Below, piece by piece: positions 5,132 through 17,001 of a stretch of DNA of 39,743 nucleotides (the stretch's first letter is position 1; each line of letters opens with the position of its first letter). The stretch lies in assembly GCA_026709365.1 (NCBI GenBank), contig JAPOTD010000116.1, positions 1 through 39,743 on the forward strand. Reading direction: 5' to 3'. The position numbers were made by a program, and so were the translations under genes. The notes beneath the pieces are model-generated. The model was not told where the DNA came from and did no database searches. It saw only the letters and a list, made by a program, of their open reading frames with translations. The DNA comes from Gammaproteobacteria bacterium. Its GTDB lineage: Bacteria; Pseudomonadota; Gammaproteobacteria; Pseudomonadales; Azotimanducaceae.

Positions 5132-8100
5132 TTACGTCATCGGCTGCCGCAGCAGTTCGAGCAGCTCCTCCGCATTCAGCCGCGCCGGCGCGTCGGCGTC
5201 CTGCAGCAGGCGGTCGGCCAAGTCCTTCTTGTGGTGGTGGAGTTCGACGATTTGGTCCTCTATGGTGCCCTTTGCCACCAAGCGGTAGATGGTCACCGGA
5301 CGGGTCTGGCCGATGCGGTGGGCGCGGTCCGAGGCCTGGTCCTCCACCGCCGGGTTCCACCACGGGTCCATGTGGATGACGTAGTCGGCGGCGGTGAGGT
5401 TCAGGCCGGTGCCGCCGGCCTTCAGGGAGATCAGGAACAGGTCGCCCTCGCCGGCTTGAAAGGCGGCAACGCGCTTGGCGCGGGCCTTGGCGGGAGTGCT
5501 CCCGTCGAGGTACTGGTAGGGGATGCCGGCTTCGCGCACGGCCTCCTCCAGCAGCTTCAAGTGGGTGACGAATTGGGAGAAGACCAGCACTTTGTGGCGG
5601 TTCTCGCGCAGTTCCTCGATCAGCTCCCGGAACATCCTGAGCTTGGCGCTCTCCGGTGCGCCGGCCTCGCGCACCAGCTTCGGGTTGCAGCAGGCCAGGC
5701 GCAGGCGGGTGAGATGGGCCAGCACCTCCAGGCGGCGCGAGCCTTCGCCCTGGTCGTCGCTCGGCGCGACTTCCAAATCCTCCACCGCCCGCTGCCGCAG
5801 CGCCTCGTACAGGGCCGCCTCGTTGGGCGACATCTCCACGTGCAGGGTGATCTCGGTGCGTTCCGGCAGGTCGTCGAGCACGTCGGCCTTCAGGCGGCGC
5901 AGCATGAAGGGCGCAATCAGGCGCCGCAGGCGGCTGCGGGCGTCGGTGTTGCCGCCGCGTTCGATGGGCGATGCGAAGTGGCGCCGGTAGTGCTCCAAGG
6001 AGCCGAGCAGGCCCGGGTTGATGAAGCTGAACAGCGAGTGCAGGTCGATCAGGTTGTTCTGAATCGGGGTGCCGGTGGTGATCAGGCGGAAGTCCGCCTG
6101 CAGCCGCCGCACCGCCTTGGCCCGTTTGGTGGCGGGGTTCTTGATGGCTTGCGCCTCGTCAAGGACGGCGCTACGCCAGGGCACTGCGGCCAGCTTGTCA
6201 ATGTCGTTCTGCAGCAGGCCGTAGCTGGTCACCACCAAGTCGAAGGGGCCAAGGTCGTCCAACTGTTCGCCGCGCGATGCGGCCGCGCCGCCGTATGTGG
6301 CCACCTTCAAGGTGGGCGCGAAACGGCGCGCCTCGTCGATCCAGTTGGCCACCACCGAGGTTGGCGCCACCACCAGCGCCGGGCCGTCCGGGGCCCGGTG
6401 CAGCAGCAGGGCCAGGGTCTGCACCGTCTTGCCAAGGCCCATGTCATCGGCCAGGCAAGCGCCCGCACCCCATTGGCTGAGACGCGCCAGCCACTCGTAG
6501 CCTTCCCGTTGGTAGGGGCGAAGGTCCGCCTGCAAGGTGCTGGGCAGGGCCGGATCGAAGGCTTGGGCTTCGTCGAGCCGGCAGCGCTGCTCGCGCCAAG
6601 CGGCATCGGTGCTCACCTGGGCGTCGGCGATGAGCTCGTCCAAGGCCAGCGTCGCCAACGGATGCATGCGCACAGCATCGCCGGCCGCGGGTGACGAGAG
6701 GCTGCGCAGGTCATCCAGCTGGCGGCGGAAGGCGCTGCTGAGCGCCAGGAATCCGCTCTCGCCCATCTTCAGGAACCGGGAACCCGGGTTTTCGTCAAGC
6801 AACGCGAAGATCTGCCGCAGGGTCAAGGCCTCGCGTTCGTCAAAGCGCACCTCGCCGGATGCGGAGAACCAATCGGCGGCCCGCTTGATGGAGAGGTTCA
6901 GGGAGGCGCTGCTGGCTCGGGCGACGATCTTGAACGGCTCACCCTGCGGCCATAGGCAGCGGGCCTGGGCGGCGTTGAGCTGCTCCAGCAGCGTCAGGCA
7001 GTCCTGCGGTTCGCTTAGGGCCAGGCTCCAGTCGCCCGCCTGCCCGGCGTCGATGCCGCGCAGCATGGGGCAGCTATCGATGAGCGTCTCGGCCGCCTCG
7101 CGTTCCGCCGCCAAGCTGCGCTGTGCCCGCACCGTTGCGTCGTTCTGCACGGCGAACACGGTGGCGCTGCCCGCGCCCGGGCTCAGGTAAATGGCCGACT
7201 CCGGGACCGGCTCCACCAACAGATCGACGGTCAAGCCGTCGCCAGTGGGCTCCAGGCGCAGCCAAGGGTTGGGGTCGGCTTCGACTTCGGGAGCGCCGGA
7301 GTCCTCGCCGGCGGCGCTTTGCACCTGCACGTCGCCAGCCAGCGCAGTAACCGCCTCGAAGAACCGTCCGCGGGCACCGGTGGGCAGGCTTAGGCCCTCC
7401 GCGGGGATGATGGCGCGCAAGTGCCGATGGCTGTCGGAGAGCTTCCACACTTCGTAGCGGGTGGCGCTGATCGTTTGGCCGACGTAATCCACGTTCACGT
7501 CCTCGGCGTGCGGCTCAAGCCGCACCCGGGCGCCGCCATCGGGGGCTTCGTCAATGATCAGTTCTGGCTCCCGGCGCATGACCTGCACCGGTGTGTGGCC
7601 CATCAGCAATTGGGGATGGCCCGCCAGCGCATGCAAGGCGCCCCAGCCAACTTGGTAGTCCGACCGCTCCCAGTAGCCGGCTCTATCAAAGGCGGCAATG
7701 GCGGCGTGGTCCTGCTCCGTCAGGCCGTCGAAGTCCTCGGCGGAGTGGCGCAGGCGCCAAAGCGGCACCACGCGGCCCTTGGTCCAGTTGCCGGTCTTGC
7801 CCAGGCGCTGCTCCCTGGGCGCGATGGTCGGCGGGCCGTTGGGGTTGGTGCGCTCTACGCTCCACACGAGGCGCCGCCGCTTCCGCGGGCCATCGCCTGA
7901 CGTCTTGCGGGCCTTGGCCGCCAAGCCCTCCAAGGCCCTTAAGGAGTACTCCCAATCCGGCAGGGGGTCGCCCGCCGTGCAGAGGCTGACGGTACCCAAT
8001 TGGCTGTGCAGCGCTTCGCTGGTTTCGCCGGCTCGCTCCGCGGCCTTGGCGCCGAACAGCTCCGGCTGCCGCCGGATCGACGTGCAGCACTCCGCTTCGA

Positions 8101-9743: not shown

Positions 9744-10247
9744 TCAACTCAGCCCCATACGATTCTCGTCGTCTATCAGCCTGACTTTGCGGGGCAATTT
9801 GCTGTCCCACTGCCAGAGCACAAGATTGACGTCTTGTTCAGTTGCGCCAAGCGCATAGCTTCCAACCCGCATTCCAGCGAAACCAGAAGTCATCAGGCGG
9901 TCTGCGAGCGCTTGGGAGGCGGGCACCTTGCCGGAGAACATCTCATCACGCCAAGTTGGGCAGTCGATTTCGAGTTGGTCAACCGCCTGAGTTGCCCGTT
10001 CATTGGGATCCAGTGCGTCGAAAACCGGACTGATGTCCACTTCGTAGGCGCACAGCACCAAGGGCTGCATCCGCCGAAAGTAGGGGCTGACCTCTCTCGC
10101 GGCGGTCGCGGATGAAAAGGACAGGTACATGGTCGCAACCCCGAGCCGGTTGAATCGGCCTCCCCTACGCCGAGCTCCTTCCCCAGACAGCGGCGTCCAC
10201 GCCCAGCGCGGGTCGTGCGCCCGATAAACCACCGCTCGAAGATGCAC
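9744..10247 (-). CDS. RES-domain toxin (type II toxin-antitoxin, predicted NAD+-degrading)
   Basis: A 167-residue RES-domain protein. Characterised RES toxins hydrolyse NAD+ and are held inactive by a cognate Xre/DUF2384 antitoxin. The family signature is visible: YRAHDPRWAW near the N-terminus, GGRFNRLGVATMYLS with the conserved Arg at residue 31, then Ser43 and Glu52 in SFSSATAAREV. These are the Arg, Ser and Glu region that names the domain. A later LVLWQWDSKLPRKVRLID matches the usual C-terminal strand of the family. Translation starts at GTG (10247). The gene lies 14 bp downstream of the antitoxin, the standard antitoxin-first order. Confidence 0.88.
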   Translation of the reverse strand: MHLRAVVYRAHDPRWAWTPLSGEGARRRGGRFNRLGVATMYLSFSSATAAREVSPYFRRMQPLVLCAYEVDISPVFDALDPNERATQAVDQLEIDCPTWRDEMFSGKVPASQALADRLMTSGFAGMRVGSYALGATEQDVNLVLWQWDSKLPRKVRLIDDENRMGLS

Positions 10248-10261
10248 TTTTCCGCTGGACG

Positions 10262-10612
10262 TTAGGCGTAGCCGCCATCAAGCACTTGGTCCAGATACGC
10301 GTGAACCCCGTCTGCCTTGCCGTCTCGAACAAGCTGGGATGGCGTCATGTCCGCGAACCCGGGCAATGGCTCGGAGCGGAACCACGCATAGGCCACAAGT
10401 GCCGACCCCACTAGGCCTTCCACGCGGTTGAGAATTTCCAGCATCTGCCGCAGCCGCGTTTGCGTCTTGGGTGCGCCAATGCGGGAGGCCCGGGAAAGGG
10501 CGTCCCGGCTCAACCCCAATGTATGCGCGATTTCCGCTTTGGTGGTTCGCAGCTCCCGCGCCACGGCATTGGGCGAGAAGCCGACCTCGGTAGCGAGTTC
10601 CTGAATCTGCAT
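10262..10612 (-). CDS. Xre/MbcA/ParS-type antitoxin (DUF2384), partner of the RES toxin
   Basis: A 116-residue antitoxin with an N-terminal helix-turn-helix (AEIAHTLGLSRDALSRASR) and a C-terminal MbcA/ParS/Xre toxin-binding domain (MLEILNRVEGLVGSALVAYA, then FADMTPSQLVRDGKADGVHA). It neutralises the RES toxin encoded immediately downstream and, by analogy with RES-Xre pairs, represses its own promoter. The ATG at 10612 leaves a leader of about 28 bases from the predicted start site; an in-frame GTG at 10624 is the alternative. The operator-like palindrome at 10658-10678 overlaps the -35 box and fits autoregulation. Confidence 0.87.
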   Translation of the reverse strand: MQIQELATEVGFSPNAVARELRTTKAEIAHTLGLSRDALSRASRIGAPKTQTRLRQMLEILNRVEGLVGSALVAYAWFRSEPLPGFADMTPSQLVRDGKADGVHAYLDQVLDGGYA

Positions 10613-10646
10613 GTCTGAACTCACGAAAAATTACAAATTATTCGTC

Positions 10647-10700: not shown

Positions 10701-11336
10701 CTAATCCCCCACTTTCTCCTTGAACTCGCACAGATCCTCGATCACGCAGGCCCCGCACCTCGGCTTGCGGGCCATGCAGATGTAGCGGCCGTGCAGGATC
10801 AGCCAGTGGTGGGCGTCCTTGAGGTAGGGCCTTGGAATCCAGCGCACCAGCCGATCCTCCACTTCGCGCACGTTCTTGCCGGGGGCGATGCGGGTGCGGT
10901 TGGCGACGCGGAAGATGTGTGTGTCCACCGCCATCGTCGGCTGGCCGAAGGCGGTGTTGAGCACCACGTTGGCGGTCTTGCGGCCGACGCCGGGAAGCGC
11001 TTCCAAGGCCGCGCGGTCGGCGGGCACTTCGCCATCGTGTCGCTCAATGAGCAGCTTGCAGGTCTTGATGACGTTCTCGGCCTTGGTGTTGAACAGGCCA
11101 ATGCGCTTGATGTAGCCCTTCAGCCGTTCGACGCCGAGGGCGGCTAGGGCGGTGGGGGTGTTGGCCACCTTGAACAGCGGGCCGGTCGCCTGGTTGACGC
11201 TGACGTCCGTGGCTTGGGCGGACAGCATCACCGCGATCAACAGCTCGAAGGGCGTGTCGTAGCTTAGTTCCGTGGTCGGCTTCGGGTTTTCAGCCTTCAG
11301 CCTCTCGAAAACCTGAGTTCGTTTTTCCGTGTTCAT
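10701..11336 (-). CDS. nth: Endonuclease III (DNA glycosylase/AP lyase)
   Basis: A 211-residue base-excision repair enzyme that removes oxidised pyrimidines and cleaves the abasic site. The helix-hairpin-helix LPGVGRKTANVV carries catalytic Lys120, and VDTHIFRV carries Asp138, the same numbering as E. coli Nth. The C-terminal [4Fe-4S] loop CMARKPRCGACVIEDLC has the full C-x6-C-x2-C-x5-C spacing. The ATG at 11336 aligns with the E. coli start and lies inside the 3' end of rnfE (47-bp overlap). Position after rnfE is the standard gammaproteobacterial arrangement. Confidence 0.96.
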   Translation of the reverse strand: MNTEKRTQVFERLKAENPKPTTELSYDTPFELLIAVMLSAQATDVSVNQATGPLFKVANTPTALAALGVERLKGYIKRIGLFNTKAENVIKTCKLLIERHDGEVPADRAALEALPGVGRKTANVVLNTAFGQPTMAVDTHIFRVANRTRIAPGKNVREVEDRLVRWIPRPYLKDAHHWLILHGRYICMARKPRCGACVIEDLCEFKEKVGD

Positions 11337-12030
11337 TTGAGTCCGTTCCAATTGGAGGTTGGGGCGATAGGCGGTTGCGCAGGCCGTTGCCCAGTCCCAG
11401 CAGCAGGCCCGCAATGATGAAGGCGCCAGGCGGCAGCAGTGCCATCAGGAAGGGTGCGCTGCCGAAGCCGAGATCGATTCGCCAAGCCGCGGCCGCGGGG
11501 CCGAGCAGGTGCTCCATGCCCGCCAGCAGGGTGCCTTGGCCGAGGGCCTCGCGCACGCCGCCCAAGGCGATCAGGGCGATGGCGAAGCCGGTTGCGGTGC
11601 CCAGCGCATCGAGACAGGCCCGCCACGGCGGCTGGCGGCTGGCGAAGGCCTCCATCCGGCCGAGGATCATGCAGTTGGAGACGATGATCTGCACGAACAG
11701 CGCCACGCGCAGATAGAGCTCGAAGGCGTAGGCCTCCAGCAACAGGACGCTCAACGTGGTGAAGGTGGCGATCACCAGCACGAAGCAGGGCAGCCGGACT
11801 CGATTCGGAATCCAAGCCCGCAACGTGGAGATGGCCAGTGCCGAGCCGAGCATCACGAAGCCGCTAGCCAAGGCCAAGCCCAAGGCATTGACCAAGCTGT
11901 TGCTGACCGCCAGGAGGGGGCACAGGCCCAGCAGTTGAATCCACGCCGGATTGCGTCGGATGGCGGCGTCGGCAAACGTGCCGCCTGCGGCAGCGTTCGT
12001 GCCATCGGTAGTGGTGTCCGTGCCGTTCAT
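11290..12030 (-). CDS. rnfE: Rnf electron transport complex subunit E (RnfE/RsxE)
   Basis: An integral membrane subunit (246 residues) of the Rnf/Rsx ion-translocating electron transfer complex in the inner membrane. It is recognised by RRNPAWIQLLGLCPLLAVSN near the N-terminus, SNCMILGRMEAFASRQPP in the middle and GGVREALGQGTLL, with about six hydrophobic helices. RnfE pairs with RnfA and the two together hold the membrane iron-sulfur centre. The ATG overlaps the rnfG stop (ATGA). A Thr/Gly/Ala-rich stretch of about 20 residues precedes the first conserved residues. The 3' end runs 47 bp into nth, so rnfE and nth are translationally linked. Confidence 0.93.
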   Translation of the reverse strand: MNGTDTTTDGTNAAAGGTFADAAIRRNPAWIQLLGLCPLLAVSNSLVNALGLALASGFVMLGSALAISTLRAWIPNRVRLPCFVLVIATFTTLSVLLLEAYAFELYLRVALFVQIIVSNCMILGRMEAFASRQPPWRACLDALGTATGFAIALIALGGVREALGQGTLLAGMEHLLGPAAAAWRIDLGFGSAPFLMALLPPGAFIIAGLLLGLGNGLRNRLSPQPPIGTDSNEHGKTNSGFREAEG

Positions 12031-12530
12031 GGCGCGTTCGGCGCCGCAGGCGGCCCGGTCCTTGGGCCGAGCATTTGCCGGACGCCGCGCTTCACCGCTT
12101 CGCTGGTGATGGTGGCACCGCTGACGGCATCCACTGCAAGCGGCGGGGTGTTGGCAAAGCGGCGCATCCAAGGACTCCTGTCGATGTCGATGAAGTCGCC
12201 GAGGCCGGGGGTCTCCCGATGTTCAGCCACCCGGGCGCCCAGCAGCCGCCCGTCGTTGCCGAAGGCCGCCAGCAAGTGGATTGTCCCGGCGTAGCCTTGG
12301 ATCTCGGACCGCTTGAGCCAAATGCCCCCCGGCAGATCGACTTGGTCCCCCTGCCATGCCAGGCCCGTGGGGTCGAATGGGTGGCCGACCAACTGGTGCG
12401 CGAGTTGCCAGAGGTGGCGTGACCGATTGGCCTCGATGGCCGGTTCAGTCAACGCATGGACGCCAGCCAGCAGCAGGCCGCAGCCTAGGCCGATGACGCT
12501 GATGCCAAGCACCGGACGCAGCGTCTTCAC
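12027..12530 (-). CDS. rnfG: Rnf complex subunit G (RnfG), FMN-carrying, unusually short
   Basis: The periplasm-facing flavoprotein subunit of Rnf, anchored by one N-terminal helix (LGISVIGLGCGLLLAGVHAL). The covalent FMN attachment motif is DAVSGATITS near residues 134-143, and the conserved EHRETPGLGDFID block is present. At 167 residues it is about 40 shorter than typical RnfG, with a compact segment between the helix and the EHRETPGLGD block. It starts at GTG (12530), which overlaps the rnfD stop (GTGA). Reading further upstream in the same frame would run through rnfD, so that extension is rejected. Confidence 0.9.
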   Translation of the reverse strand: MKTLRPVLGISVIGLGCGLLLAGVHALTEPAIEANRSRHLWQLAHQLVGHPFDPTGLAWQGDQVDLPGGIWLKRSEIQGYAGTIHLLAAFGNDGRLLGARVAEHRETPGLGDFIDIDRSPWMRRFANTPPLAVDAVSGATITSEAVKRGVRQMLGPRTGPPAAPNAP

Positions 12531-13444
12531 GGTGACTTCCAAAGGGACTGCCCCCTGAATCCCTGTCGAAAGGCCCGGTCGACAAGCGGCGTTGCGGCGT
12601 TGGCAATCAGCACCGCGAAGGCGATGCCGTCCGGATAGCCGCCCCAAGCGCGGATGACGAAGGCGATGGTCGCCGTGACGCCGCCGAACAGCCACTGTCC
12701 GGGCCAGCTGCCGGGGTGGGTCACCGGATCGGTGATGACGAAGAACGCCGCCAGCAGAGTGCCGCCCGACAGCAAGTGGAACAGCGGCGGTCCGGCCCCC
12801 GATGAGCTGCCGCCATCGTTGAAGACCAACGCCAGGGCGGCCAAGGTGACGAGAAAGGCCGCGACCACCCGCCAAGCGATCAGGCCGCGCAGCATGAGCC
12901 AAAGGCCACCCGCGGCGAACGCCAAGCTGGCCTGCTCCCAAGCCCGGCCGCCGAAGTGGCCAAAGGCGGGGTTTTGGCGGAAGGCTTCGGCCACGGTCAG
13001 CCCATCCCGGTACTTGAGCGCCGTCAGCGCCGTCGCGCCGGTGTGTCCGTCCACCAGCGGCGGCCAGGCGCCCATGGCCAGCGGATAGCAGACCAGGGCG
13101 ATGGCGTACCCGGCCATGGCCGGGTTGAAGATGTTGTGGCCCAAGCCGCCGTAGAGTTGCCGGGCCAGCAGAACCGCGCCAACCGTGGCGACGGCGACCG
13201 TGTGCCAAGCGGCGGCGGGCGGCAGCGCCAAGGCCAAGATCAGGGCCGTCAGGGTGACCGAGCCGTCGGCTAGGTCGGCGGGCCGCTGCCGCGCCTTGGC
13301 CGCAGCCCAGTCGAGCGCGCAGGCCAGTGGCCAAGCGATGGCGATGTTGCGCAGATGGCCGCTGCCGAAATGAACGCTGAGCACCGCCAAGCCCGGCAGC
13401 AGCGCTGCGCTGACCGACCACATGATGCGGCCCGTGCCGCTCAC
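12527..13444 (-). CDS. rnfD: Rnf complex subunit D (RnfD), FMN-carrying membrane subunit
   Basis: A polytopic membrane subunit of 305 residues, somewhat below the usual 330-350. The flavinylation motif GHTGATALTALK places the FMN-bearing Thr near residue 138, and LYGGLGHNIFNPAM is another family block. FHLLSGGTLLAAFFVITDPV and AWGGYPDGIAFAVLIANAA are typical C-terminal RnfD helices. The start is GTG at 13444, overlapping the rnfB stop; an ATG seven codons later is possible. In the usual operon rnfC separates rnfB from rnfD; here rnfD follows the fused rnfB-C' gene directly. Confidence 0.93.
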   Translation of the reverse strand: MSGTGRIMWSVSAALLPGLAVLSVHFGSGHLRNIAIAWPLACALDWAAAKARQRPADLADGSVTLTALILALALPPAAAWHTVAVATVGAVLLARQLYGGLGHNIFNPAMAGYAIALVCYPLAMGAWPPLVDGHTGATALTALKYRDGLTVAEAFRQNPAFGHFGGRAWEQASLAFAAGGLWLMLRGLIAWRVVAAFLVTLAALALVFNDGGSSSGAGPPLFHLLSGGTLLAAFFVITDPVTHPGSWPGQWLFGGVTATIAFVIRAWGGYPDGIAFAVLIANAATPLVDRAFRQGFRGQSLWKSP

Positions 13445-14331
13445 CAGGGGCGGCCGTTGCCGCTGGCCAGGCGTCGTGCCCGGCGGTCACGGGCGTCCGA
13501 CTGCTCCGCTTGCAGGCGGGCGTTGCGGGCGTCGAAGCGCGCTTTGGCAGCGGTGGCTTGGGCTTGGCGATCATCTCGGACCCGCAGCTCGCGCTTGGCG
13601 GCGCCGAACAGATGCGCTAACGGGATGCCGCTCGGGCAGGCGCGGTCGCAGAGGCGGCATTCGATGCAGTGATCCAAGCCGGCATCCGCAGCGCCGTTCA
13701 GTTGCCCTCCCCGGATCAATCGCACCAAGTGCTGCGGCGCTAGGGATTGGGGGCACTCCGGTTCGCAGCGGTTGCAGCCGATGCAAGGCGCACTCGCATC
13801 GGGCGGAACCGCCCGGATTGGGGATGCGCCGCCCGCGACGGCGGTGGGCATTTCGACCAGTTCGATGCAGTCCACGGGGCAGGCGGGCAGGCAGAGTTCG
13901 CAGCCCGTGCATTGGCGCTCGACCACCGTGTGCATGAAGCCGGATGCACCGACGATGGCGTCCACCGGGCAGGCGTCCAAGCACAGGGCGCAGCCGATGC
14001 AGTCCGGCTCCCGAACGCGGGCGACGGCCGGCTTGGGCTCAAGGGGTATGGCGCCATCCTCCCGGCCCAGCAGCGCCTTGAGCGCTGTGAAGGTCTCCTG
14101 GCCGCCCGGCGGGCACAGGTCCAAGGGCGCGCCCTTGGCGAGCGCTTCCGCGTAGGGGCGGCAGCCGGGGTGGCCGCATTGCCCGCATTGCGTTTGCGGC
14201 AGCAGCGCGTCGATGGCGTCGATCAGGCCGTCGTCGTTGGCCGGCAGCCGCGAATGCGCCCAGGTCAAGGCGAGGCCCGCGATCAGGTTCAGGCCGGCCA
14301 GCAACCCGGCGGCGATGAGCATGGCGGTCAA
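13441..14331 (-). CDS. rnfB: RnfB fused to the C-terminal ferredoxin module of RnfC
   Basis: A 296-residue protein, about 100 longer than ordinary RnfB. Residues 1-25 form the membrane anchor. C49, C52, C57 and C73 form the RnfB Fes domain. Two ferredoxin motifs follow at C111/C114/C117/C121 and C141/C144/C147/C151, completing a normal RnfB. After a short linker, residues 183-290 match the end of RnfC instead: C183/C186/C189/C193, then SLAPQHLVRLIRGG, C222/C225/C228/C232 with SGIPLAHLF, and the Arg/Ala-rich tail AKARFDARNARLQAE. The RnfC N-terminal NADH/FMN (Complex1_51K-like) and SLBB domains are absent, and no other rnfC lies in the window. The frame is continuous and overlaps rnfA and rnfD at both ends, so this is unlikely to be a simple sequencing error. 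Confidence 0.9.
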   Translation of the reverse strand: MTAMLIAAGLLAGLNLIAGLALTWAHSRLPANDDGLIDAIDALLPQTQCGQCGHPGCRPYAEALAKGAPLDLCPPGGQETFTALKALLGREDGAIPLEPKPAVARVREPDCIGCALCLDACPVDAIVGASGFMHTVVERQCTGCELCLPACPVDCIELVEMPTAVAGGASPIRAVPPDASAPCIGCNRCEPECPQSLAPQHLVRLIRGGQLNGAADAGLDHCIECRLCDRACPSGIPLAHLFGAAKRELRVRDDRQAQATAAKARFDARNARLQAEQSDARDRRARRLASGNGRPW

Positions 14332-14903
14332 TCGAGTCCCGCGAAGCCGAGGAAGCCGAGGCTCATCAGGCCCGCCGTCACCAGGGCGATGGGCGCCCCG
14401 GCGAAGGCCCGGGGCAGGTCGGCGCCCTCAAGGCGCTCGCGGATGGCGCTGAACATCATCATCACCAAGCTGAATCCGGCGGCTGCGCCGACGGCGAAGA
14501 CGATGGCGCCGGGCAGGGACAGGCCTTCGCCGGCCACCAGCAGTGCCACGCCGAGCACCGCGCAGTTGGTGGTGATGAGCGGCAGGTAGAGGCCGAGGCT
14601 GCGATGCAGTAGCGGGCTGGCGGAGCGCAGGTAGAGTTCGGTGAACTGCACCACGCTGGCGATCACCACGATGAAGACGATGATGCGCAGCCACTCCAAG
14701 CCCAGGGGCGCCAGCAGGGCGTGGTGGATGAGGTGGCAGGCGATCGCCGCCAAGGTCAGCACGAAAGTGGTGGCCAAGCCCATCGCCAGCGCCGGGGCGA
14801 AGCTCCTGGTCACGCCCAGGAACGGGCACAGCCCCAGGAATTGGGCCAGCACGAAGTTGTTGACCAGCAGGGCGCCGACGAGGATCAGGGCGAGGTCAGC
14901 CAA
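14328..14903 (-). CDS. rnfA: Rnf electron transport complex subunit A (RnfA/RsxA)
   Basis: A 191-residue, six-helix inner-membrane protein. Family blocks are LLVNNFVLAQFLGLCPFLGV near the N-terminus and LGLYLPLITTNCAVLGVALL in the middle, each carrying one of the Cys residues that ligate the intramembrane iron-sulfur cluster shared with RnfE. The end FAGAPIALVTAGLMSLGFLG is also typical. It begins 10 bp after the metG stop, so metG and the rnf genes are probably co-transcribed. The stop overlaps the rnfB start by 4 bp. Confidence 0.95.
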   Translation of the reverse strand: MADLALILVGALLVNNFVLAQFLGLCPFLGVTRSFAPALAMGLATTFVLTLAAIACHLIHHALLAPLGLEWLRIIVFIVVIASVVQFTELYLRSASPLLHRSLGLYLPLITTNCAVLGVALLVAGEGLSLPGAIVFAVGAAAGFSLVMMMFSAIRERLEGADLPRAFAGAPIALVTAGLMSLGFLGFAGLD

Positions 14904-14913
14904 GGCGATCGCC

Positions 14914-16929
14914 TTACTTGACGTCCATCCCGGGCTTGGCGCCGGCGTCGGGGCTGAGCAGGAAGATGTGCTCGCCGCCCGGCCCGGCGGCGAGAATCAT
15001 GCCCTCCGAGGTGCCGAAACGCATCTTGCGCGGCGCCAGGTTGGCGACCACCACCACCAGCCGATCGATGAGGTCGGCTGGATCATAGGCCGACTTGATG
15101 CCCGCCATAACCTGCCGGCGGTCATCGCCGAGGTCCAGCTGCAGGCGCAGCAGCTTGTCCGCCTTCGGCACTGCCTCAGCTTCGGCGATGCGCGCCACCT
15201 TAAGCTGCACCTTGGTGAAGTCCTCGATGTCGATGAGCGCGGGCCCCCGGTCCTCGCCGTTGGCAGCCTCTGCGGAATCCGCTTCCGGCTGCGGCTTGGA
15301 GGCCTCAACGAGGCGATCGACCTGCTTTTGGTCCATGCGCGTCAGCAGCGCCTGGTAGGCGTTGATGCGCCCGCCGAGCAGCGGTTGGTCGATGTCGGAC
15401 CAGCGCAGCGGGCCCACGTTGAGAAACTTGGCGACCGCCTCCGACAGGGAGGGCAGGATCGGCGCCAGGTAGATGGCGAGGATGCGGAACAGGTTGAGGC
15501 CCAAGCTGCACACCGCCTGCACCTCGGCTTGGCGACCTTCCTGCTTGACCAGCTTCCAAGGTTCGCGCTCGGCGATGTATTGGTTGGCGAGGTCGGCCAG
15601 GGCGGCGATCTCCCGCACCGCCCTGGAGACCTGTCCTGCCTCGTAGCATTCGGCGATGGACTCGGAGGCCTCCGCGAACCGGCGCCATAAGGCTTCGTCG
15701 GCCAGCTTCGGGGCCAGTTCGCCGTCGAAGTTGCGGGTGATGAACCCGGCGCAGCGGCTGGCGATGTTGACCACCTTGCCCACCAGGTCGGCGTTCACCC
15801 GCTGCACGAAGTCCTCGAAGTTGATGTCGTAGTCGTCAACCGTGCCGTTGAGCTTGGTGGCGAAGTAGTAGCGCAGATACTCCGGGTTCAGGTGCTCAAG
15901 GTAGGTCGAGGCCTTGATGAAGGTGCCGCGGGACTTGGCCATTTTGGCCCCTTCGACGGTCACGAAGCCGTGGGTGTGGATGCGGGTCGGCTTGCGGAAG
16001 CCGGCCCCTTCGAGCACCGCTGGCCAAAAAAGGGCATGGAAGTTGACGATGTCCTTGCCGATGAAGTGGTGCAGCTCGGTGTCGGATCCAGCCTTCCAGA
16101 AGTCGTCGAAGTCCAAGTCGCCGCGGGCGTCGGCCAGGTTCTTGAAGCTGGCCATGTAGCCCACTGGCGCATCCATCCAGACATAGAAGTACTTGTCTTG
16201 GGTGCCCGGAATCAGAAAGCCGAAGTACGGGGCGTCTCGGGAGATGTCCCAAGGCTTGAGGCCGTCGTCCAGCCATTCGGCGAGCTTGTTGGCCACTTCC
16301 GGCTGCACGGCGCCGCTGCGGGTCCAGCCCTTGAGCATGTCGCTGAATTGGGGCAGATCGAAGAAGTAGTGCTCGGACTGCCGAACCACCGGCTCCGCTC
16401 CGGAAACCAGCGACCGGGGCCGGCCCAGTTCGGTGGCGTCGTAGGTGGCGCCGCAGGCATCGCAGTTGTCGCCGTACTGGTCCGCCGCGCCGCAACGCGG
16501 GCAGTCGCCCTTGACGAAGCGGTCGGCCAGGAACAGGCCGCGCTCCGGGTCGTAGAGCTGGGCCACGTCCCGGGTGAAGATGCTGCCCTGCTCGCGCAGC
16601 CGGGCGAAGACCAGTTCCGACAGCGCGCGGTTCTCCTCGGAATGCGTGGAGTGGTAGTTGTCGTGCGCAATGCCGAAGCCGGCGAAGTCCCGCATGTGCT
16701 CCTGGCGCATCGCTTCGATGAGCTCCTCCGGGGCGACGCCAGCCTGCTCGGCATGGAGCATGGTGCCGGCGCCATGGGTGTCGTCGGCGCAGACGTAGAG
16801 GCACTCATGGCCGCGCAGCTTTTGGAAGCGCACCCAGATGTCGGTCTGGATGTGCTCCAGCATGTTCCCCAAGTGAATGGAGCCGTTGATGTAGGGCAGG
16901 GCGCTGGTGACCAAAATGCGGCGTTTCAT
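14914..16929 (-). CDS. metG: Methionyl-tRNA synthetase with C-terminal tRNA-binding domain
   Basis: A 671-residue class I synthetase that charges initiator and elongator tRNA-Met. The HIGH-type motif is [12 protein letters not shown] at residues 17-28. A zinc knuckle [17 protein letters not shown] lies near residues 142-158. The KMSKS loop reads [10 protein letters not shown] near 328. The last 110 residues ([20 protein letters not shown] onward) are the Trbp111-type tRNA-binding/dimerisation domain. The ATG at 16929 ([13 protein letters not shown]) matches the family start; 14 extra in-frame codons upstream are not conserved. It is divergent from mrp and followed by rnfA, as in pseudomonads. 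Confidence 0.96.
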
Positions 16930-17001
16930 CGGCAGGGGCGCGGCTGGGAGCGATGGCGCACTATACCCCAAGAGAATTACTGGAACCCGATTCGCTAAAG
17001 T

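Follow-up and report, generated by a model that had tools for sequence, protein, structure and literature searches.

The Rnf complex is understood as a ferredoxin:NAD+ pump. In its solved structures (PMC9588780, PMC11889175), electrons pass from ferredoxin to the FeS domain of RnfB, then to the RnfA/E cluster and the flavins of RnfG and RnfD, and finally to the clusters and flavin mononucleotide (FMN) of RnfC, whose ferredoxin domain takes them from the riboflavin of RnfD. The gap between the RnfB and RnfC clusters is 25 Å in Clostridium tetanomorphum and more than 30 Å in Acetobacterium woodii (PMC9588780, PMC11889175), and in Azotobacter vinelandii a long C-terminal helix of RnfC touches RnfB and RnfH (PMC12174285). 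We analysed a stretch of 39,743 nucleotides (the window) from a gammaproteobacterium of the family Azotimanducaceae (contig JAPOTD010000116.1, assembly GCA_026709365.1). It carries an rnf operon in which RnfC is, with near certainty, reduced to its ferredoxin tail (RnfC') and fused to RnfB, with loss of the NAD site.

The proteobacterial Rnf/Rsx systems (A. vinelandii Rnf1, Escherichia coli Rsx) have the same gene order apart from rnfC, and nth is a neighbour in the E. coli record as well. They share with the window the RnfA, RnfD, RnfG and RnfE families, an RnfB with FeS domain and two ferredoxin motifs, and the ferredoxin domain and C-terminal helix of RnfC. In the window, however, RnfC is without its N-terminal, FMN/NADH and SLBB parts, the remnant is fused to RnfB, and RnfD and RnfG are shorter. 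The Rnf of Methanosarcina acetivorans is likewise reported to work without NAD(P), but it is archaeal, its RnfC is a separate protein, and it includes a cytochrome c (PMC4023990). A precedent for the evolutionary loss of NAD/FMN function is NqrA of Na+-NQR, a relative of RnfC (PMC4014512); it is free of cofactors, its fold persisting and its clusters being gone (PMC12174285), the reverse of what is seen in the RnfC' of the window. NqrF of the same complex is unrelated to RnfB. The NQR/RNF-like partial systems are also a rearranged subset of Rnf/Nqr modules, but combine an RnfG-like protein with a fusion of an RnfD-like membrane domain and an NAD-binding domain, and are proposed to use NAD(P)H (PMC8238504). 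No report of an RnfB–RnfC fusion was found among the matches listed in the open-licence literature searched.

Architecture of the RnfB–RnfC fusion

The frame of rnfBC' is uninterrupted from 14331 to the TGA at 13441, and encodes 296 amino acids (aa) from a TTG start or 293 aa from an alternative ATG at 14322. Its parts are as follows (residues of the ATG form).

13441..14331, minus strand: rnfBC', the fusion of RnfB with the 2x[4Fe-4S] domain and C-terminal helix of RnfC
13843..14322, minus strand: RnfB portion, residues 1 to about 160 (TIGR01944/PF04060/PF14697)
13588..13788, minus strand: RnfC-derived ferredoxin domain, residues about 179–245 (RsxC profile 362–473)
13444..13587, minus strand: RnfC C-terminal helix and Arg/Ala tail, residues about 246–293 (predicted helix 235–288)

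The NCBIfam model of RnfB (TIGR01944) matches residues 2–165 of the TTG form with 199.6 bits (cut-off 68.7). Further on, residues 176–287 correspond to positions 362–473 of the 556 in the RsxC profile PRK05035 (90.8 bits), and residues 178–251 to positions 360–433 of the 435 in the rnfC profile TIGR01945 (55.1 bits); these two scores fall under the whole-protein cut-offs of 345 and 245.95. A Pfam scan of the product gives FeS (PF04060) and Fer4 domains, and no match to RnfC_N, Complex1_51K (hereafter 51K) or SLBB. Searched by sequence against the PDB, the product matches A. vinelandii RnfB (8ahx_B) over query residues 10–157 (E 2.3e-29) and A. vinelandii RnfC (8ahx_C) over residues 116–282 (E 7.7e-14).

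The fusion thus keeps a complete RnfB, with a transmembrane (TM) helix (predicted at residues 2–25), the FeS domain and two 4Fe-4S motifs. The 293-residue form has 21 cysteines: four in the FeS domain, 16 in four CxxCxxCxxxC motifs and one other. Those of the RnfB portion are at 46, 49, 54, 70, 108, 111, 114, 118, 138, 141, 144 and 148, those of the RnfC' domain at 180, 183, 186, 190, 219, 222, 225 and 229. A structure model of the fusion (mean predicted local distance difference test score, pLDDT, of 75, below 50 for residues 109–149; predicted template-modelling score 0.40) has too low a confidence for its domain arrangement to be interpretable. It contains the long C-terminal helix (235–288), in a block with pLDDT 91–98 up to residue 290, and its top Foldseek match is A. 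vinelandii RnfC (8rbq_C, E 7.4e-4).

A first-pass annotation of the window, made without database searches, had described an RnfC reduced to a two-ferredoxin tail behind a complete RnfB, and the profile, Pfam and PDB matches agree on this. It had also held that the NADH, FMN and SLBB parts of RnfC are gone; none of them has a Pfam match in the fusion, from which we infer that the known site is absent.

The NAD(H) module and the operon

In the genome to which the window belongs (3.70 Mb in 144 contigs, completeness 95.7%), nothing matches RnfC_N above the cut-off. Its one match below the cut-off (20.9 of 25.6 bits) lies in a frame that, from its translation, we take to be the biotinyl end of oxaloacetate decarboxylase alpha. 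Its single 51K match lies among Nuo genes, in a frame that is, on the same grounds, presumably NuoF, beside NuoD/NuoE. The five genomes of the own genus in our family sample, including the single-contig genome G216, all carry the fusion and are all without RnfC_N above cut-off. A full rnfC elsewhere is rejected accordingly: neither the own genome nor any of the four congeners yielded one. It is conceivable that the own assembly missed such a gene, but for the genus as a whole this is very unlikely.

A strong 51K match (E about 1e-50) is present in all nine genomes of the own genus searched for it; in the own genome this is the NuoF-like frame. Seven of the nine have a second, weaker match. The one second copy examined, that of G216, sits immediately ahead of a gene for formate dehydrogenase alpha. 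No candidate for an NADH module is seen in the rnf operon of the window. The suggestion of a recruited, separate NADH module therefore found no support in the operon, in the single NuoF-like frame of the own genome or in the copy of the congener.

Elsewhere in the family, RnfC_N passes the cut-off in 12 of 51 genomes with a fusion. Three of these (G170, G184 and G235) possess, in addition, a complete Rnf operon of a different type. In seven (G145, G162, G178, G201, G209, G226 and G227) the RnfC_N match shares a contig with an NqrF match, as does a further RnfC_N match of G184, and these matches are probably NqrA. The matches of G211 and G212 were not assigned to any protein. The second Rnf operons of G235 and G170 hold, between rnfB and rnfC, a frame of 1,510–1,557 aa with pyruvate:ferredoxin oxidoreductase domains (L181 6247–10776, L182 6609–11279, minus strand).

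On the minus strand, the gene order of the window is metG, rnfA, rnfBC', rnfD, rnfG, rnfE, nth. The five rnf genes form one operon, which holds the RnfA/D/G/E membrane/flavin core.

14914..16971, minus strand: metG, 5' neighbour outside the complex, read from the translated frame
14328..14903, minus strand: rnfA, membrane subunit (TIGR01943, 243.9 bits, above the cut-off of 229.3; PF02508)
12527..13444, minus strand: rnfD, 305 aa (TIGR01946, 265 bits, above 207.05)
12027..12530, minus strand: rnfG, 167 aa (PF04205 FMN_bind; TIGR01947, 80.8 bits, below 102)
11290..12030, minus strand: rnfE, 246 aa (PRK12405, 239.4 bits, above 184; TIGR01948, 196.1 bits, below 213.4)
10701..11336, minus strand: nth, endonuclease III, 3' neighbour outside the complex (PF00730, PF10576)

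Family models match each rnf gene in the order that had been read from the sequence. Adjacent rnf genes overlap by 4 bp (A/B TTGA, B/D GTGA, D/G GTGA, G/E ATGA); all four overlaps noted earlier are in the sequence, with the reservation that the one between rnfA and rnfBC' holds only with the TTG start. The end of rnfE and the start of nth share about 47 bp in different frames (11290–11336). Beside nth, a RES-domain protein (9744–10247, minus strand) and a protein with an Xre/MbcA/ParS-type antitoxin domain (10262–10624, minus strand) look like a RES-Xre toxin–antitoxin pair.

The cofactor ligands are in place at motif level. RnfA carries both AE1 [2Fe-2S]-type cysteine motifs (LCP and TNC), and RnfE, the second AE1 half, both of its own. 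RnfG has the SGAT flavinylation motif inside its FMN_bind domain. RnfD has the FMN threonine (TGAT) and the riboflavin-site asparagine (GGLGHNIFNP) and aspartate (TDP).

RnfD and RnfG are indeed short, as first observed, but this could not be upheld as a mark of remodelling, since family members with a separate RnfC are about as short. Measured from stop to stop, RnfD has a median length of 312 in the fused loci of the family (49 loci), 318 in those with a full RnfC (16) and 351 in others (70); the corresponding values for RnfG are 179 (47 loci), 183 (14) and 215 (70). We therefore reject short RnfD and RnfG as a sign of the fusion. The N-terminal arm of RnfD, which is buried in RnfC in C. tetanomorphum (PMC9588780), is 5.7 codons long in the window. 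Its median is 7.7 codons in 59 fused loci versus 19.7 in 87 with a full RnfC (distances unscreened, with a few contig or frame outliers and the duplicate fused loci L204/L126, L207/L284, L209/L101 and L224/L133). Short arms are also found in 13 of 28 other family rows, and among independent pairs, too few to reach 0.05, the link between arm and fusion is not significant. For these reasons a coupled loss of the arm is rejected as evidence specific to the fusion.

Distribution and origin of the fusion

The survey of related genomes proposed with the original observation was carried out on 100 genomes of the family, sampled from a larger group and including the own genome (G000). Loci were fetched for genomes with matches, and stop-to-stop frames were scored with hidden Markov models (HMMs) seeded from the Rsx proteins of E. 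coli K-12. The fusion of RnfB with the tail of RnfC only recurs in 50 of the 100 genomes, in 19 of 37 genera (in one of them, G158, it is split across two contigs); since the same architecture recurs so often, it is more than a chance event. One further genome, G177, has a 499-residue protein in which RnfB is fused to the 51K part and the tail, so that the flavin domain is retained: the RsxC model matches from 121 to 473, 51K is over the Pfam cut-off, and SLBB gives a weak match of the custom HMM only. A separate RnfC, often diverged or shortened, is present in 27 genomes (seen in part, at a contig edge, in G166) and a separate tail-only RnfC in four. In G171 RnfC is cut by a contig edge, and the fetched locus of G167 has rnfB and an rnfD-like frame without rnfC. 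Three genomes have another Rnf type only (G146 from its fetched locus, G204 and G222 from match tables).

Outside the family, the fusion turned up once among 145 sampled genomes of the order, in a different family (G137, where it lies at a contig edge), and at least five more times among 369 sampled genomes of the class, in four further families (G451, G331, G373, G348 and G329). Among the best 80 loci on named genome contigs, nine carry the fusion, and all nine are titled metagenome-assembled genomes.

A tree was built from RnfA, the RnfB core and RnfD (98 rows, 612 columns, RnfC columns excluded; quick LG+G4, without bootstraps). The fused label requires 12 parsimony changes on it, at least five of them forced by starred branches, and a single fused clade (51 fused versus 31 other family rows) is rejected by the approximately unbiased (AU) test (p 2.7e-53). 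Genus g124 contains a separate 51K-bearing RnfC (L155), a fusion that keeps 51K (L164) and two tail fusions (L127 and L130); this mix of states suggests that fusion may have preceded deletion there. In genus g100, the N-terminal part of RnfC is gone without fusion. Among the separate RnfCs of the family, the flavin/NADH motifs have diverged in many and the RnfC_N or SLBB matches are gone from some, and both cluster motifs are kept in every RnfC row printed. We infer that NAD chemistry may have been relaxed early in the family, with the flavin module then removed repeatedly.

Signs of function and the proposed electron path

Function is very probably maintained in the lineage of the window, judging from the sequence comparisons. 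In an alignment of 44 of 50 fusion proteins (L104, L110, L111, L127, L130 and L132 left out), all 16 ferredoxin cysteines and the FeS cysteines 46, 49, 54 and 70 are invariant, at a mean column identity of 36%. All four ferredoxin motifs are present in 50 of 51 fused frames (50 from the family plus L175), the exception being L132. The ratio of non-synonymous to synonymous substitution rates (dN/dS), from six pairs among four genomes of the own genus, is 0.08–0.27 for the RnfB core, 0.12–0.25 for the RnfC' domain and 0.24–0.41 for the helix tail; it is 0.07–0.16 for RnfA, 0.12–0.16 for RnfD and 0.11–0.18 for RnfE. For the linker (11–14 codons), dN is 0.30–1.39.

The ligand motifs for the [2Fe-2S] cluster, both covalent FMNs and riboflavin are present in 90–98% of the fused loci scored. 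The RnfA cysteine motifs are found in 46 and 47 of 49 loci, those of RnfE in 45 of 46 each, the flavinylation threonine of RnfG in 44 of 47, and the threonine, asparagine and aspartate of RnfD in 45, 48 and 49 of 50. On inspection, eleven of the motif misses comprise four truncations at contig edges, six cases of a residue kept off-pattern and one real change. The FeS pattern of RnfB is matched in 47 of 51 fused frames; of the four others, L104, L127 and L130 keep the cysteines and L111 is truncated at a contig end. ApbE, the flavin transferase that attaches FMN, is present in all five genomes of the own genus. Its clients there are likely to be RnfD and RnfG (other clients were not searched for), because NqrF is over cut-off in none of the five, as against 58 of the 100 genomes of the family sample. 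SoxR is without a match in the same five genomes (in the family sample, 11 of 100 genomes exceed the cut-off for it), and reduction of SoxR is therefore an unlikely role in the own genus.

We propose an Rnf-type complex that no longer uses NAD(H), with electrons leaving or entering at RnfC' by way of a one-electron carrier; we give this about an even chance, and put the exit through RnfC' to such a carrier slightly below that. The U-shaped path would be kept: from the RnfB clusters to the [2Fe-2S] cluster of RnfA/E, the FMN of RnfG, the FMN and riboflavin of RnfD and the clusters of RnfC', still coupled to ion movement. The invariance of the RnfC' cysteines speaks for electrons still passing through this domain, and once the FMN and the NAD site are lost, the known mechanism leaves no route for hydride chemistry at RnfC. 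With the two-electron/hydride module lost, the RnfC' clusters would act as a one-electron port, used by a soluble carrier (either a flavodoxin or a second ferredoxin); docking of such a carrier appears to be the simplest reading that also accounts for the invariant cysteines. The second and third ferredoxin motifs are separated by a median of 41 residues in 50 fusions, a length that could let both cluster sets hold their native places. Such an ion-coupled ferredoxin:one-electron-carrier oxidoreductase could in principle draw on the ion gradient to bring electrons to RnfB at a lower potential. The full form of the proposal is more tentative: an Rnf without NAD(H) that has evolved repeatedly and couples ferredoxin:ferredoxin (or flavodoxin) oxidoreduction to an ion gradient. 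With both ends of the path on the same polypeptide, it would transform redox potential between two pools of one-electron carriers.

The main rival, though we think it unlikely, is stepwise decay, some lineages having lost further subunits. The NAD module would have gone first and other subunits later, ending in an orphan RnfB(-C') polyferredoxin beside nth; the fusion would be a stage with a reduced, non-pumping role, for example as a membrane-tethered ferredoxin. Graded states inside one family and diverged FMN/NADH motifs in many separate RnfCs fit this course, and a number of observations weigh against a functional NAD-free complex throughout the group. Thirteen of the 100 family genomes, some of them incomplete, have no rnf match of note, and G167 keeps no rnfC. 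In the four g100 genomes fetched (L166, L167, L169 and L170), rnfB, a tail-only rnfC, rnfD and a weakly matching rnfG are found, with neither rnfA nor rnfE in the fetched flanks. Conversely, G145 (L107), L208, L210/L286 (one contig) and L287, the last three outside the family sample, have rnfA and the fusion, and their flanks show no rnfD, rnfG or rnfE; in all these cases the search covered the fetched flanks alone. In L095 one cluster cysteine of RnfA is replaced, and in L132 (6042–6956, plus strand; genome 73% complete) cysteines of the second ferredoxin motif are replaced, by either decay or sequence error. The accessory protein RseC is over cut-off in none of the five genomes of the own genus, which is uninformative.

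Two orphan forms bear on decay as well. In L288 a fusion (5982–6899), probably a soluble form, lies directly before nth (6889–7563); no TM helix is seen ahead of its FeS domain, and its flanks show no other rnf genes. In Pseudomonas sp. ICMP 561 (L264) an RnfB frame of 375 aa (stop to stop) shares its locus with nth, as in the window. Unlike the protein of the window, it has no TM helix ahead of the FeS domain; the part printed shows none of the RnfC ferredoxin motifs, and no further rnf gene was found within 12 kb. L264 presumably belongs to NCBIfam PRK06991. Against decay stand the invariant cysteines, the low dN/dS within the own genus in RnfA, the RnfB core, the RnfC domain, RnfD and RnfE, the ligand motifs retained in most loci scored, the complete operon of the window and the spread over 19 genera.

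The electrons might also take a different exit, from RnfG to a periplasmic acceptor or from RnfD to quinone, in which case RnfC' would not carry them outward and the complex would act as a ferredoxin dehydrogenase that supplies the respiratory chain, in the manner of the M. acetivorans Rnf or of Nqr. In the former, transfer from RnfG to cytochrome c without use of NAD(P) has been proposed (PMC4023990), and in the latter quinone is reduced by NqrB (PMC12174285). We consider this improbable: the invariance of the RnfC' cysteines would be unneeded, no cytochrome was noticed in the operon (none was searched for), and the quinone site of NqrB uses N-terminal helices that are absent from RnfD (PMC12174285), whose N-terminus is short here. 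NAD(H) could otherwise be served in trans by a module docking on RnfC', such as a NuoF-like protein, a formate-dehydrogenase diaphorase or an unrecognised reductase. A NuoF-like frame exists and most genomes of the own genus have a second 51K match, but the own genome has a single one, the operon holds no visible candidate, and the second copy in G216, the one of seven examined, lies beside the formate dehydrogenase alpha gene; this makes such a module quite improbable. That rnfB was joined to a broken rnfC by a frameshift or assembly artefact is barely credible in spite of the 144 contigs of the own genome, as the same architecture is found in continuous frame in the single-contig congener and in half of the family sample.

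With regard to the features that define Rnf, the membrane/flavin core, RnfB, the RnfC 2x[4Fe-4S] domain and, at motif level only, the cofactor ligands are all found, and the RnfC_N, 51K (FMN/NADH) and SLBB parts of RnfC are absent from the fusion and were not found elsewhere in the 95.7% complete genome. The NAD-free complex proposed here descends from Rnf and would be expected to work like it, but it is without the RnfC NAD/FMN module of a ferredoxin:NAD+ oxidoreductase. Such operons should accordingly not be annotated as NADH-linked, a caution that concerns a group known mostly from environmental DNA. The separate, diverged and fused forms, with or without the flavin domain, are natural experiments on the swapping of Rnf/Nqr input and output modules. 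If the proposal is true, the repeated removal of the NAD site with retention of the path would show the ion-coupled core to be capable of working with other carriers.

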